Source: Geminicoccaceae bacterium
GTDB lineage: Bacteria > Pseudomonadota > Alphaproteobacteria > Geminicoccales > Geminicoccaceae
Assembly: GCA_020445645.1 (NCBI GenBank)
Contig: JAGRGG010000012.1
Span: forward strand, 1 to 64,000
Reading direction: 5' to 3'
DNA length: 64,000 bases
Within the stretch, counting starts at the first letter, position 1; each line of letters starts with the position of its first letter. Of the stretch, positions 34,740 to 40,187 are shown piece after piece. The position numbers and the translations under genes are program-made. The notes under the pieces were generated by a model. That model was not told where the DNA came from. It made no database searches and worked only from the letters and a program-made list of their open reading frames with translations.

Positions 34740-35162
34740 ATGGCCTGGTTCACGACCCTGCAACCCAAGCGCGTCGGCCTCGTCGACATCTTCCGCAACC
34801 CCGTCGGCCGCGAGTGGCTCGAGCTTCAAGCACTCGCCGACCCGATTGACGGCATCCGCGGCTACGTCGTCGGCGGCGACTTCTACGGCTGGGGCTCGCT
34901 TCCCCTGCACCGCGACCTGCGCCGGGACCTCCAGGCGGAACTGCCCGATGCGCGGGGCGGCTGGATCGGCGTCCAGGTGATGCCGCTCCTTCGCGCCGTG
35001 TCAATCACCGAGGCGCTGGACGGGACGGGCGAGCCCGTGCCGGGCGGCGAGGTCGTGGCCGCCCTGTCCCGCTGCCTGCCGCTCGTCCGCCTCCTCGGCC
35101 AGGACTTTCTCGTCACCCGCCTGGGCGAGGCCACGCCCCGCCCCGTCGCCGCCGCGCGCTAG
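34740..35162 (+). CDS. Hypothetical protein, 140 residues
   Basis: A soluble, mixed alpha/beta protein starting MAWFTTLQPKRVGLVDIF, with a conserved-looking centre GYVVGGDFYGWGSLPLHRDL and GGWIGVQVMPLLRAVSI. No signal peptide, membrane segment or recognised domain. It stands alone: transcription from the CtrA-like box upstream is possible, and the next gene is convergent. Base usage matches neighbours, so it is taken as a real gene of unknown function. Confidence 0.65.
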   Translation: MAWFTTLQPKRVGLVDIFRNPVGREWLELQALADPIDGIRGYVVGGDFYGWGSLPLHRDLRRDLQAELPDARGGWIGVQVMPLLRAVSITEALDGTGEPVPGGEVVAALSRCLPLVRLLGQDFLVTRLGEATPRPVAAAR

Positions 35163-35203: not shown

Positions 35204-37129
35204 TCAGGGCCACGCCATGATTGAAGCCTCGGACGAGGTGAGGCGGTGGATCGTGCCGGTCTGGTAGAGGGAGGACAGAACGCCTTTGAGGCCGAAGGCG
35301 GCGCCGACGGCGCGTTTGGCCCGGTCGGCGTAGGTGCCGGCGACGGCGGACGCCCCCCCTTTGGCGTAGAGTTCGAGGTTCACGGCGGCGCTGATCAGGC
35401 CGAGATGAGTGAAGGCCTGCGGCATGTTGCCGAGGAAGGCTGAGGTGGCGGGGTTGATCTCCTCGGAGAACAGGCCGACGTCGTTGGCGTGGGCGAGCAT
35501 TTCCTCGAACAAAGGCCGGGCTTCCCTTCCCCCGTCGGCGGCGAGCAGGGCGTCGACGAGCCAGAAGCTACAGGTGAGAAAGGCGCCCTCGCCGCCGTTG
35601 AGGCCGTCGTCGCTGGTGTAGCGGTAGAGGAAGGGGCCTTTGCGCAACTCAGCGTTGGTCCGCCTGATCGTGGCGTCGAGCACGCCGTCCGGCAGGGGGA
35701 AGCCCAGGAGGGGCGCGAGCAGGTTGGCAGCGTCGATGCCGTCGGCGTTGTAGGTCTGGCGCAGGACGCCATCCCCGTCGATCCCCTCGGCGACGATCTG
35801 GTCCCGGATGCGCTCGCGGGTCTCCCGCCATCCCGGCTCGTCGCCGAAGAGGCCGAGCGCCCGGTCCATCGCCACCCAGGACATGATCTTGCCGTGGACG
35901 TGCTGGTGGGGCGGGCCGCGCATCTCCCAAAGGCCCTGGTCGGGCTCGTCCCACTGCGCCTTCGCCGTGTCGACGAAGGTGCGCATCAGGCGGCGCTCCT
36001 GCTCGTCCAGCCGCCCGCCCAGCGCCTCGTAGAGGAGGATGAGGTCGAGCGCGAGGCCGTAGGCGTCGATCTGCCGCTGGCGGAAGGCGGCGTTGCCGGT
36101 GCGCACGGGCCGGCTGCCCCGGTAGCCTTCCAGGTGGTCCAGCTCCCTTTCGGGCAGGAAGCGCTCGCGCTGGAGGCCGTACATCACCTGGATGTCTGGC
36201 AAGGTGAGGTGGACGCACTGGGTGAGGTAGGCGACGTAGCGCTCCGCCTCGCCGCCGTAGCCGAGCGCGCCGAGCGCGTAGAGGGCAAAGCAGGAGTCGC
36301 GCAGCCAGGAAAAGCGGTAGTCCCAGTTGCGCGCGCCGCCGATCTCTTCCGGCAGGGAAGTGGTGAGCGCGGCGGCGATGGCGCCCGTGGGCGCGAAGGT
36401 CATGAGCTTGAGGACGAGCGCGCTGCGCTCAACCGCTTCCCGGTAGGGCCCTTGATAGCGGCAGTAGGCGATCCATTCGCGCCAGAAGGCGAGGGTCGTC
36501 GCCTCCATCGCGTCGGTCCGCTCCAGGGGCGGCGCCTCGATCGTGTGGCGGGCGGCGAGGATGAGGTCGAGCCTCTCGCCCGCTTCGAGACGCACGACGG
36601 CTTCGGCCCGGTTCCCCTCGATCTTGAGCGGCGTCTTGCAGAACAGGGCGGGTACCCCGTCGCCGCCGACGCCCGCGCTCCGCTCGTCGAGCCGGACGGG
36701 CGAACGGGCGAAGCCTTCGACCGGCCGGTAGCGGATGCGAAGCCGGACGCTGCCCTCGACGACCAGGACCCGACGGACGATCCACCCCGGCACGACCAGG
36801 TTTACGTAATCGTGAGCGGTGCTGCCGATCCGACGCCCGACCGGCATGAAGTCGGTGAGGCGCACCCGTCCGCTCTCGGTCTCGATCGTCGTGACGAGGA
36901 CGTTCGTGCCAGGCTCGTAGGCCCGCCGCGACCCGGTCGCGCCGTCCGGGCGGGTTTCGAGGAAGCCGCCCTTGTCCTTGTCGAGCAGGCGGCAGAAGAC
37001 GGGATCCTGGTCGTGGCGCTCCAGGCACGACCAGTCGATGTCGCCGTTGGAGGCGATGAGCGCGTGCCCGTGGCAGTCGCCGATGACGGCGTAGTCCCGG
37101 ATGGATCGGTAGCCGTCGGTGTCGGTCAT
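35204..37129 (-). CDS. GH15 glycoside hydrolase (glucoamylase/trehalase type)
   Basis: 641-residue cytosolic enzyme; no signal peptide. ATG 37129 gives RSIRDYAVIGDCHGHALIASNGDIDWSCL, the usual N-terminal super-sandwich start of bacterial GH15 proteins. The (alpha/alpha)6 barrel carries GGARNWDYRFSWLRDS and MPQAFTHLGLI with the LFSEEINP acidic segment before it. Members hydrolyse alpha-1,4-glucans or trehalose; sequence alone does not decide. It is divergent from the LOV kinase across 139 bp containing two palindromes. Confidence 0.9.
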   Translation of the reverse strand: MTDTDGYRSIRDYAVIGDCHGHALIASNGDIDWSCLERHDQDPVFCRLLDKDKGGFLETRPDGATGSRRAYEPGTNVLVTTIETESGRVRLTDFMPVGRRIGSTAHDYVNLVVPGWIVRRVLVVEGSVRLRIRYRPVEGFARSPVRLDERSAGVGGDGVPALFCKTPLKIEGNRAEAVVRLEAGERLDLILAARHTIEAPPLERTDAMEATTLAFWREWIAYCRYQGPYREAVERSALVLKLMTFAPTGAIAAALTTSLPEEIGGARNWDYRFSWLRDSCFALYALGALGYGGEAERYVAYLTQCVHLTLPDIQVMYGLQRERFLPERELDHLEGYRGSRPVRTGNAAFRQRQIDAYGLALDLILLYEALGGRLDEQERRLMRTFVDTAKAQWDEPDQGLWEMRGPPHQHVHGKIMSWVAMDRALGLFGDEPGWRETRERIRDQIVAEGIDGDGVLRQTYNADGIDAANLLAPLLGFPLPDGVLDATIRRTNAELRKGPFLYRYTSDDGLNGGEGAFLTCSFWLVDALLAADGGREARPLFEEMLAHANDVGLFSEEINPATSAFLGNMPQAFTHLGLISAAVNLELYAKGGASAVAGTYADRAKRAVGAAFGLKGVLSSLYQTGTIHRLTSSEASIMAWP

Positions 37130-37169
37130 GCGTCGTCCGGGTTCGTTTGCGCTCCAAAAGGATGTTCCA

Positions 37170-37199
37170 CTCGCCACGGCTCTTGGCAAGAGGGGCGAG
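37170..37199. promoter_or_regulatory. Nested palindrome in the GH15/LOV-kinase region
   Basis: A perfect 13-base palindrome CTCTTGGCAAGAG (37180-37192) is enclosed by the complementary arms CTCGCC (37170-37175) and GGCGAG (37194-37199). It lies between the two divergent start codons, about 40 bp from the GH15 start, and is a candidate operator or 5' UTR hairpin. Confidence 0.4.
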
Positions 37200-37225
37200 G
37201 TCACTTCAGCGTGCTGGAAGCGCGC

Positions 37226-37240
37226 CGTTGCCGGGCAACG
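37226..37240. promoter_or_regulatory. Second palindrome in the same divergent region
   Basis: CGTTGCCGGGCAACG, perfect 7+1+7 palindrome, 29 bp upstream of the LOV-kinase start. No known regulator consensus recognised. Confidence 0.35.
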
Positions 37241-37268
37241 CTTGCGTGCTTGGGGCGTTGAAGGAGGC

Positions 37269-39605
37269 ATGGTCATCCAGCAAGACGCCATGCCCGACCT
37301 CGATCCGACCCTTCGCGAAGCGGTTCGCCAGTCCCGTACGGCGGCGTGCCTTACCGACCCGCGCCAGGAAGACAACCCGATCGTCTTCGTCAACGCGGCG
37401 TTCTGCCGGCTCACGGGCTACGACGAGGACGAGGTCCTCGGCCGCAACTGCCGCTTCCTCCAGGGCAAGGACACGGACGAAGCCAAGGTGCGGGAAATCC
37501 GCGCCGCGATCGAGGCCGGCCACGGCCTGCGGATCGAGGTTCTCAACTACAAAAAGGACGGCAGCCCCTTCTGGAACGACCTGCGCATCGACCCGATCCG
37601 CGACGAAAGCGGCGAGCTCCGCCTCTTCTTCGGTGCGCAGGAGGACGCAAGCGCGCGCGTGCACGACCGGCGCGCCCTCGAGGACGCCAACGCCGAACTG
37701 CGTCTCCTCCGCACGGCGCTATCCGCCGCCAACGACGCCGTCCTCGTCACCGAGCCCGACCCCCTGGATGAACCGGGACCGCGCATCGTCTACGCGAGCA
37801 AAGGCTTCGAGCGCATGACCGGCTACCGGGCGGACGAGGTAAAGGGCTTCTCGCCCCGCCTCATGCAGGGGCCGGACACATCGCGCGCCGAACTGGAGCG
37901 GATCCGCACGGCCCTTGCCGCCGGCCACGAGGTCGAGGGCAGCCTCGTCAACTACAAGAAGGACGGCACGCCTTTTTGGATCGAGTGGACCATCGTGCCG
38001 GTCCACGACGACGCCGGCCGGCGGACGAACTGGGTCGCCGTACAGCACGACGTTACCGAGCGGGTCAAGAGCCGGCAGAGCCACGACCAGCGCCTGGAGC
38101 AGCAGGAGATCGTGGCCGAGTTCGCGCAGAAGGCCCTCGACGGCTTCGAGCGGCAGGCGCTCCTGACCGAGGCGTGCCGCGCCATCGTGCGGGGGCTCGA
38201 CTGTCCGTTCGCGAAGGTGCTCGTGCCGGTGCGCGGCGAGACGGGCGAGCGCACCCTCCTCGTCGCCGCCGGGGTCGGCTGGGACGAAGGCGTCGTCGGC
38301 CATGCCACGATCGGCATCGACGACGACTCGCCCGCCGGCCACGCCCTGCGGACCGGCCAGCCCGTCGTCACCCCCGACCTCGCGCAGGAAACGCGCTTCT
38401 CCTGGCCGACCCTCCTGCGCGCGCACGGCGCCGTCAGCGCCGTCAACGTCCTCATCGAGGGGAACGGGAAGCCGTTCGGGGTGCTGGAGGCCGACAGCCG
38501 GGATGCCCGATACTTCAACGAGCACGACATGGCGTTCCTGAGCGGCGTCGCCAGCCTGCTCGCAAGCGCGCTGGAACGCCGGCAGGCCGAGGAGGAGCGC
38601 GAGTTCCTCATGGCCGAGCTCGACCACCGGGTGAAGAACATGCTCGCCCGCGTCCAGGCGATCGCCCAGCGCTCCGACGACGAAGCGAAGTCGAAGGCGC
38701 AGTTCCGGGAGAGCCTCGTCGCCCGGCTCGGTGCGATGGCGCAGACCCACGACCTTCTGACCCGGAGCCGCTGGCGCGGCGTCGACCTGCGCCAGATCTG
38801 GGCGCGCGAGCTTGCCCCCTACAGGACCGGCGACAACCTGCGCCTGGAGGGTCCGAAGGCCGTCCTCAACCCGAAGGCGGCGCTCTCCCTCAGCCTCGTC
38901 GCCCATGAGCTGGCGACGAACGCGGCCAAGCACGGGGCGCTCGCCAGCCCCAAGGGCCGGGTCGAGGTCGTCTGGCGGCGCCAGCGGGATGGAGGGCTCG
39001 CCATCCTCTGGCGGGAGTCGGGTGGGGCGCCCGTCGAGGCACCGGTCCGGCGGGGCTTCGGCAGCACGGTGATCGAGCGGGCGTTCGCTTTCGAAACGGG
39101 GGGGCAGGCGGCGCTGCGCTTCCTGCCCGAGGGCGTCGTCTTCGACGCGACCCTGCCGGCCGCCGTGCTCGTCGAGGAGGAGGCTCTACCCTCGGCGCCC
39201 GAGGCGAGCAGGGAGGCGTCAGGGGAAACCGCCGCCGGCGTCGCCCTGCTCGTCGAGGACGATTACCTCATCGCAACGATGGTCGGGGACATCCTGCGCC
39301 GGGCCGGATGGCGCGTCGTCGGGCCGGCGGCGAGCGTGGCGCAGGGGCTTGCTCTCGTCCGCGCCGAGGGGGCGTCCCTCGACGCCGCCGTACTCGACGT
39401 CAACCTTGGGGAATCGTTCTCGATCGCGGTCGCCGACGCGCTGCGCGAGCGGGGGGTGCCCTTCGTCTTCGCCAGCGGCTACACCCGCGAGGAGGTGCTG
39501 CCCGAACGCTTCGCCAGGACGCCGCGCCTGAACAAGCCCTACGGCGAGGCGGCCCTCCTGCGGGCCTTGGGCGACCTCGGCAAAAGGCGGCCGACAGGGA
39601 AATGA
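37269..39605 (+). CDS. LOV-type HWE hybrid histidine kinase (blue-light sensor)
   Basis: 778 residues from ATG 37269; AAGGAGG is unusually close (1 base), so ATG 37290 is a second option. Residues 25-127 are a LOV domain: flavin-adduct Cys61 in GRNCRFLQG, with NYKKDGSPFWN and Gln124 of FGAQED. Residues 155-264 are a second LOV-like PAS where Pro196 replaces the Cys (GFSPRLMQG) and FWN is FWI, so it should not form an adduct. A GAF domain (about 285-440) follows. The HWE kinase has phospho-His453 (LDHRVKNML), HELATNAAKHGAL and WRE at 581-583. The C-terminal receiver has Asp710 and Lys756. Cytosolic. Related LOV-HWE kinases regulate stress or adhesion; the target here is unknown. Confidence 0.9.
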   Translation: MVIQQDAMPDLDPTLREAVRQSRTAACLTDPRQEDNPIVFVNAAFCRLTGYDEDEVLGRNCRFLQGKDTDEAKVREIRAAIEAGHGLRIEVLNYKKDGSPFWNDLRIDPIRDESGELRLFFGAQEDASARVHDRRALEDANAELRLLRTALSAANDAVLVTEPDPLDEPGPRIVYASKGFERMTGYRADEVKGFSPRLMQGPDTSRAELERIRTALAAGHEVEGSLVNYKKDGTPFWIEWTIVPVHDDAGRRTNWVAVQHDVTERVKSRQSHDQRLEQQEIVAEFAQKALDGFERQALLTEACRAIVRGLDCPFAKVLVPVRGETGERTLLVAAGVGWDEGVVGHATIGIDDDSPAGHALRTGQPVVTPDLAQETRFSWPTLLRAHGAVSAVNVLIEGNGKPFGVLEADSRDARYFNEHDMAFLSGVASLLASALERRQAEEEREFLMAELDHRVKNMLARVQAIAQRSDDEAKSKAQFRESLVARLGAMAQTHDLLTRSRWRGVDLRQIWARELAPYRTGDNLRLEGPKAVLNPKAALSLSLVAHELATNAAKHGALASPKGRVEVVWRRQRDGGLAILWRESGGAPVEAPVRRGFGSTVIERAFAFETGGQAALRFLPEGVVFDATLPAAVLVEEEALPSAPEASREASGETAAGVALLVEDDYLIATMVGDILRRAGWRVVGPAASVAQGLALVRAEGASLDAAVLDVNLGESFSIAVADALRERGVPFVFASGYTREEVLPERFARTPRLNKPYGEAALLRALGDLGKRRPTGK

Positions 39606-39677: not shown

Positions 39678-40187
39678 TTGAAGTCCCGCAGTCCTTTCAG
39701 CGGTTTCATTGTCCTGGCGGCTCTCGCGGGCACCGCGGCGGCGGCACCGTCGCCCGGCTTCGACGGGCTTGTCCGGGCGACGGCAGCCTTGTGCGCGAGC
39801 AATCCTTCGACCGCCTGCGTCGCCTACGCCTTCACCGCCCTCGACCTCGACCATGATGGCGAACTCTCGGTGGGCGAACTCGACCGGGCACGGGACCAAC
39901 TCGGTGCCTGGACGGCCGCCCAGGGGGAGAGCCTGCCGTTCCCCGTCCGGCACGGCATCGGCACCGCCCTTCGGGTCGTCGACCTCGTCGGCGTCGAGCG
40001 CGCCCTCTACCTCTACGACAGCGACGGCGACGGCGGGTTGACCTTGAAGGAGGCGACGCAGGATCTCCGCCTCGACCAAAGGCCGATCGGCGAGATCTAC
40101 GCCGAAGGCCGCCTCATCGACTGGACGCGCATCCGCGCCGCCCTGGGTCCTTCCGCCTTCCTGCTCGACTATCTCGGGCTGGAGTAG
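39678..40187 (+). CDS. Exported EF-hand protein
   Basis: 169 residues from TTG 39678, with AAGGAAAAG 6 bases upstream. Signal peptide about 1-23 (ending TAAAAP). Two Ca-binding loops: DLDHDGELSVGE (about 55-66) and DSDGDGGLTLKE (about 114-125), both with acidic residues at positions 1, 3, 5 and 12. No catalytic domain; a periplasmic calcium sensor or buffer is inferred. It lies 72 bp after the LOV kinase on the same strand. Confidence 0.8.
   Translation: MKSRSPFSGFIVLAALAGTAAAAPSPGFDGLVRATAALCASNPSTACVAYAFTALDLDHDGELSVGELDRARDQLGAWTAAQGESLPFPVRHGIGTALRVVDLVGVERALYLYDSDGDGGLTLKEATQDLRLDQRPIGEIYAEGRLIDWTRIRAALGPSAFLLDYLGLE

Follow-up and report, generated by a model that had tools for sequence, protein, structure and literature searches.

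A probable blue-light HWE hybrid histidine kinase with an unusual LOV-PAS-GAF-HWE-receiver architecture in a Geminicoccaceae bacterium

We have identified a gene that likely encodes a blue-light-regulated HWE hybrid histidine kinase assembled by domain shuffling. The gene lies within a 64,000-nucleotide stretch of a Geminicoccaceae contig (the window), and its product is a soluble protein with five domains in the order LOV - PAS - GAF - HWE kinase - receiver (Table 1). Judging from its sequence, the product is probably a real and functional blue-light HWE hybrid kinase, a kind of protein that is already known, in which the domains are combined in an unusual way. It is an apparent natural addition of a light switch to an otherwise stand-alone GAF-HWE kinase type, and provides a clean test of how a LOV signal passes through intervening PAS and GAF domains.

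Pfam searches of the translated gene recovered two PAS domains, a GAF domain, HWE_HK (2.3e-24) and Response_reg (2.8e-5, under the cut-off), and detected no DNA-binding domain in the kinase. Using the NCBIfam equivalog model BluLightHisKinLov, the protein scored 387.5 bits against a cut-off of 450 bits. The feature was originally predicted to start at position 37130, where the intergenic gap begins; the gene itself begins at ATG 37269, with a GGAGG sequence just 1-2 nt 5' of the start codon. ATG 37290 is also a possible start, in which case the LOV cysteine would be residue 54. A small EF-hand protein is encoded immediately 3' of the kinase gene on the same strand (39678-40187).

Every flavin-contact position that was examined in the first PAS domain is canonical for a LOV domain. 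The putative adduct cysteine, C61 (base 37449), is found in a GRNCRFLQG motif that contains the N-C-R-F-L-Q signature, and the flavin-contact Asn, Asn and Gln are present as N93, N103 and Q124. The nearest solved structures are those of LOV histidine kinases, Brucella LOV-HK among them, together with YtvA and phototropin LOV. In a phylogenetic tree built from 68 LOV and PAS domains of same-class and same-phylum genomes and plasmids, the domain grouped with 30 LOV domains that bear the Cys, in a clade with support of 97/87. We consider it very likely that the LOV domain undergoes a photocycle. The catalytic part of the protein is similarly complete, with H453 in the H box, N551 in the N box, W581 and E583 in the W-x-E motif and a match to PF07536 (2.3e-24), and in a rapidly built tree, whose local support was low, the kinase domain fell inside the HWE clade and outside the groups of most LOV kinases. 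The receiver, which is recognized better by PRK13435-type models than by Pfam Response_reg, possesses the acidic pair D664/D665, a phospho-accepting Asp at D710, S736 and K756. Translation, motif positions and Pfam/NCBIfam matches therefore bear out the original prediction of an intact LOV motif with Cys61 followed by GAF, HWE kinase and receiver in one protein, and both the sequence and the literature on LOV-HWE/HisKA2 kinases (PMC10359499, PMC12148442) lend good support to its description as a blue-light kinase of the LOV-HWE kind. The same genome also encodes a stand-alone short LOV protein of about 140 aa with a GHNCRFLQG motif (G000:C122:3613-4095; loci L004 and L066), as well as a phytochrome-like protein that carries both an HWE kinase and a receiver (G000:C168:18704-19735; locus L002), the phytochrome part of which was recognized by eye. 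From the latter, the bacterium probably senses red light too.

Table 1. Coordinates of the kinase gene, its domains and the divergent neighbor, given as positions in the window
Feature	Position	Strand	Details
GH15 hydrolase	35204..37129	-	641 aa; Pfam GH15 1.6e-53, weak TREH_N match; divergent neighbor of kinase
Divergent intergenic region	37130..37268		exactly 139 bp
Palindrome CTCTTGGCAAGAG	37180..37192		perfect; no second genome copy even at 1 mismatch
Palindrome CGTTGCCGGGCAACG	37226..37240		perfect; no other exact copy in genome
LOV-PAS-GAF-HWE-REC hybrid histidine kinase	37269..39605	+	778 aa; from translation, Pfam, NCBIfam and motif positions; alternative start ATG 37290
LOV domain	37305..37682	+	residues 13-138; putative adduct Cys C61; N93, N103, Q124 and RFLQ all present
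Second PAS domain (PAS2)	37689..38084	+	residues 141-272; P196 at Cys position; PR-x-LQG PAS clade (100/96)
GAF domain	38094..38579	+	residues 276-437; Pfam GAF_2 1.4e-14; GAF-HWE identity to stand-alone kinases about 40%
HWE kinase domain	38580..39176	+	H453 (ELDHRVKN), N551 (HELATNAAKHG), W581/E583 (WRES), G box; Pfam HWE_HK, HWE tree
Receiver domain	39234..39584	+	D664, D665, D710, S736, K756; NCBIfam PRK13435-type 3e-14

The second PAS domain (PAS2) had been taken for a dead second LOV. It does have a proline (P196, in GFSPRLMQG) at the cysteine position, and it aligns with LOV domains, its best solved match being a phototropin-2 LOV (1.4e-24). It also retains the R, Q, N228 and Q259, while lacking the LOV Asn that precedes the Cys and the Asn of FWN (I238). 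In the 68-domain tree, however, PAS2 does not cluster with LOV domains and instead belongs to a supported clade (100/96) of its own, comprising 15 domains from many families that mostly share a PR-x-LQ motif, the closest of which is 55% identical to PAS2. A sister relation between the LOV domain and PAS2 was rejected (AU p = 0.0006), and a single clade of PAS2 with all Cys-LOVs was weakly rejected (AU p = 0.028). The underlying alignment is short (126 columns) and does not settle the finer branching. Within the PR-x-LQG clade the proline is the rule rather than a lesion, and PAS2 is thus highly unlikely to be a copy of the LOV domain that has decayed and is retained just as a dimer or partner surface. 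Of the earlier description, the proline stands, whereas a LOV that lost its cysteine does not.

The filter of Yee et al. (2015) for Cys-less LOV-like domains calls for at least 9 of 10 other conserved LOV residues (PMC4682037), and PAS2, whose residues at the N61, F64, L65 and N104 positions are S, L, M and I, falls short of it. Like natural Cys-less LOV-like domains (BAT-LOV), PAS2 has a Pro for the Cys and retains several flavin contacts; unlike them, it lacks the equivalents of these four residues (PMC4682037). FAD-binding redox PAS domains (NifL/MmoS/Aer) are marked by a Trp in helix F-alpha (PMC10468136), and no such Trp was seen on reading the PAS2 sequence RAELERIRTALAAG. Because the four filter residues and the F-alpha Trp are both missing, PAS2 belongs to a different class of PAS domain. 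The absence of a Cys is common in any case, since a survey of PAS domains found one in only 57% of the LOV cluster (PMC10468136). According to the clade analysis, a Pro for a Cys need not signify a dead LOV. The opposite reading is tempting and will be met again in other genomes, and this result corrects it. At three loci in other genomes (L058, L059 and L060), the Cys of a LOV-like domain is replaced by Met, Pro or Ala; the first two read GRNMRFMQ and GRNPRFLQ. More of the LOV residues survive in these domains than in PAS2, and they are stronger candidates for true Cys-less LOVs.

A GTDB genome scan using the GAF-HWE-receiver part of the protein returned 80 named loci, nearly all of them alphaproteobacterial by title, and nearly every match was a GAF-HWE kinase standing on its own, about 400 residues long. 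The GAF-HWE module is about 35-42% identical to such kinases from Microvirga, Bradyrhizobium, Rhizobium and others. Neither a LOV nor a PR-x-LQG PAS domain was found at any of the 80 named loci. A receiver gene is situated directly downstream of the stand-alone kinase in six loci and in a Rhizobium plasmid relative, and the receiver of our kinase resembles the regulators found in this position in several genomes, which fits a gene fusion. The protein is a mosaic, with a LOV domain of the LOV-kinase type ahead of a GAF-HWE module that stands alone elsewhere, and a fusion of LOV, PR-x-LQG PAS, GAF-HWE kinase and receiver is the simplest reading of these similarities. Searches of 31 genomes of the same family, and of class and phylum samples running to several hundred genomes, yielded partial domain matches only and no full-length ortholog, and a whole-protein scan of genome contigs returned no relatives. 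As the genomes searched are samples, this shows that the full-length architecture is rare, and not that it is unique.

Known systems share parts of this layout. The LOV-HWE/HisKA2 kinases Brucella LOV-HK, Erythrobacter EL346 and EL368 and Rubellimicrobium RT-HK are also soluble and alphaproteobacterial, with a Cys-bearing LOV domain driving a kinase of the HWE superfamily. In the LOV kinases of the EL346 survey, one sensor is followed by the kinase (PMC10359499), whereas here an extra PAS and a GAF domain are inserted and a receiver has been added by fusion; in the tree, the kinase core does not join the main groups of LOV kinases. The layout is not unprecedented, since a plasmid protein of Novosphingobium sp. 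P6W (L206) is of the LOV-PAS-GAF-HisKA-REC type, with the same sensor order and a C-terminal receiver (domains beyond the LOV assigned by eye). Its kinase, in contrast, is HisKA-type rather than HWE, and its second PAS lies outside the PR-x-LQG class. Plasmid proteins of Rhizobium sp. BG4 and Paracoccus sp. AK26 share the LOV domain, a second PAS (by eye) and an HWE kinase, but have no GAF or fused receiver and carry another class of PAS. In the Rhizobium sp. BG4 plasmid gene (L205, 2878-4362), a stop codon splits the reading frame into two ORFs, and a short LOV fragment adjoins it on the opposite strand. Two further plasmid matches to the LOV-PAS2 region with high coverage (Sinorhizobium B11 and Blastomonas) were discarded, as they span about 420-460 bp and are too short for two domains; the Blastomonas match was confirmed to be a single LOV.

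In the mechanism that we favor, blue light would induce a flavin-C61 adduct in the LOV domain, and Q124 together with the following helix would relay the change across PAS2 and the GAF domain into the HWE core, altering autophosphorylation of H453. Phosphate could then pass from H453 to D710 of the fused receiver, which may act as a switch, as a sink or as a hub for other response regulators, with PAS2 (possibly flavin- or redox-binding) and GAF contributing additional inputs or serving as relay modules. The domain content, the intact key residues, the clade of PAS2 and a PhyR gene in the genome are observed, whereas we infer flavin binding, the photocycle, the sign of the light effect, phosphotransfer and the output. 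A more speculative and unlikely extension is a light-plus-redox integrator, in which the LOV adduct and a flavin in the PR-x-LQG PAS would supply two flavin inputs to one HWE core, the fused receiver being a built-in phosphate sink or a stress-response hub; if true, this would give the widespread PR-x-LQG PAS clade a function.

It is likely that light changes the activity of the kinase. LOV-HWE/HisKA2 kinases undergo a photocycle and are able to pass their signal to PhyR (PMC12148442, PMC10359499), yet in some LOV-HKs the photocycle occurs without light altering kinase activity (PMC10359499). That precedent, along with the absence of a LOV from the GAF-HWE module at all 80 named loci, would suit a kinase driven mainly by a PAS2 or GAF ligand, with a vestigial light input. 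We regard this as unlikely, given that every LOV residue checked is retained. Weighing against the favored light-regulated kinase, no conservation vouches for the whole assembly working, as no ortholog was found, and no output partner is encoded adjoining the gene. We consider the PhyR/NepR/EcfG general stress response the most likely output, on the basis of a PhyR locus in the same genome and of precedents in Rubellimicrobium, where a LOV-HWE/HisKA2 kinase signals to PhyR (PMC12148442), and in Caulobacter, where single-domain regulators are hubs or sinks (PMC5964349). In the stress-response locus (G000:C127:11500-18578; L097), the PhyR gene scored over the family cut-off, and ORFs resembling NepR and a sigma factor were recognized by eye in the same stretch, together with a single-domain response regulator and a membrane protein that is likely a kinase. 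We put signaling through the stress network at about an even chance.

The original prediction further noted a GH15 hydrolase facing the kinase across 139 bp with two palindromes, which is corroborated by Pfam and by the exact gap. It went on to suggest that light may influence the use of storage glucan or trehalose. Under such a scheme, the kinase would regulate a palindrome-binding transcription factor, and blue light would tune trehalose or glucan breakdown via the divergent GH15 gene. The common region with its two perfect palindromes is compatible with this, as are the weak trehalase-type N-terminus of the hydrolase and the control of trehalose genes by the stress response in other alphaproteobacteria (PMC6599016). 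The palindromes themselves are mildly unusual and not decisive, two such elements occurring in 4.8% of Markov shuffles (arm of at least 6, loop of at most 8), or in 0.4% under a post-hoc definition (loop of at most 1). CGTTGCCGGGCAACG had 55 near-matches (at most 2 mismatches) in the genome versus 22 for a reversed control, an excess that is largely explicable by self-complementarity, since the same site can score once on each strand. With CTCTTGGCAAGAG unique and no clear excess for CGTTGCCGGGCAACG, no palindrome regulon was evident in this genome, and neither palindrome occurs 5' of the two closest GH15 relatives that were checked. A promoter scan found no sigma-70-like promoter in the 139-bp gap, which also lacks an EcfG-type promoter (GGAAC...GTT), and the kinase carries no DNA-binding domain of its own.

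The lack of this gene pair in the other genomes examined argues further against the scheme. GH15 relatives were found in 29 other genomes searched, and at no GH15 locus outside the window was a gene resembling this kinase located within about 1.5 kb. Larger flanks were read for the three nearest relatives (49-51% identical) and one further relative; they contained unrelated neighbors and no such kinase. Conversely, none of the 80 GAF-HWE loci had a GH15 gene within up to 4 kb on each side. A conserved neighborhood is thus missing from the other genomes examined, an outcome that the original prediction had itself named as part of the grounds for abandoning the idea, although the lack of a kinase ortholog limits how directly the pair can be tested. 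Adjacency being the sole basis for a link between light and glucan or trehalose use, we do not uphold that claim, and control of the neighboring GH15 gene by the kinase, whether through a palindrome-binding factor or otherwise, is very unlikely. The adjacency is best treated as chance until expression data differ, and the pair could be recent, as the kinase has no ortholog. Between a TPR protein and the GH15 gene is a 140-aa ORF (34740-35162) with no Pfam or NCBIfam matches. In the hydrolase itself, GLWE and SEE retain their acidic residues, and residue 359 is a Leu where five aligned relatives have a Glu (QxDxYGE).
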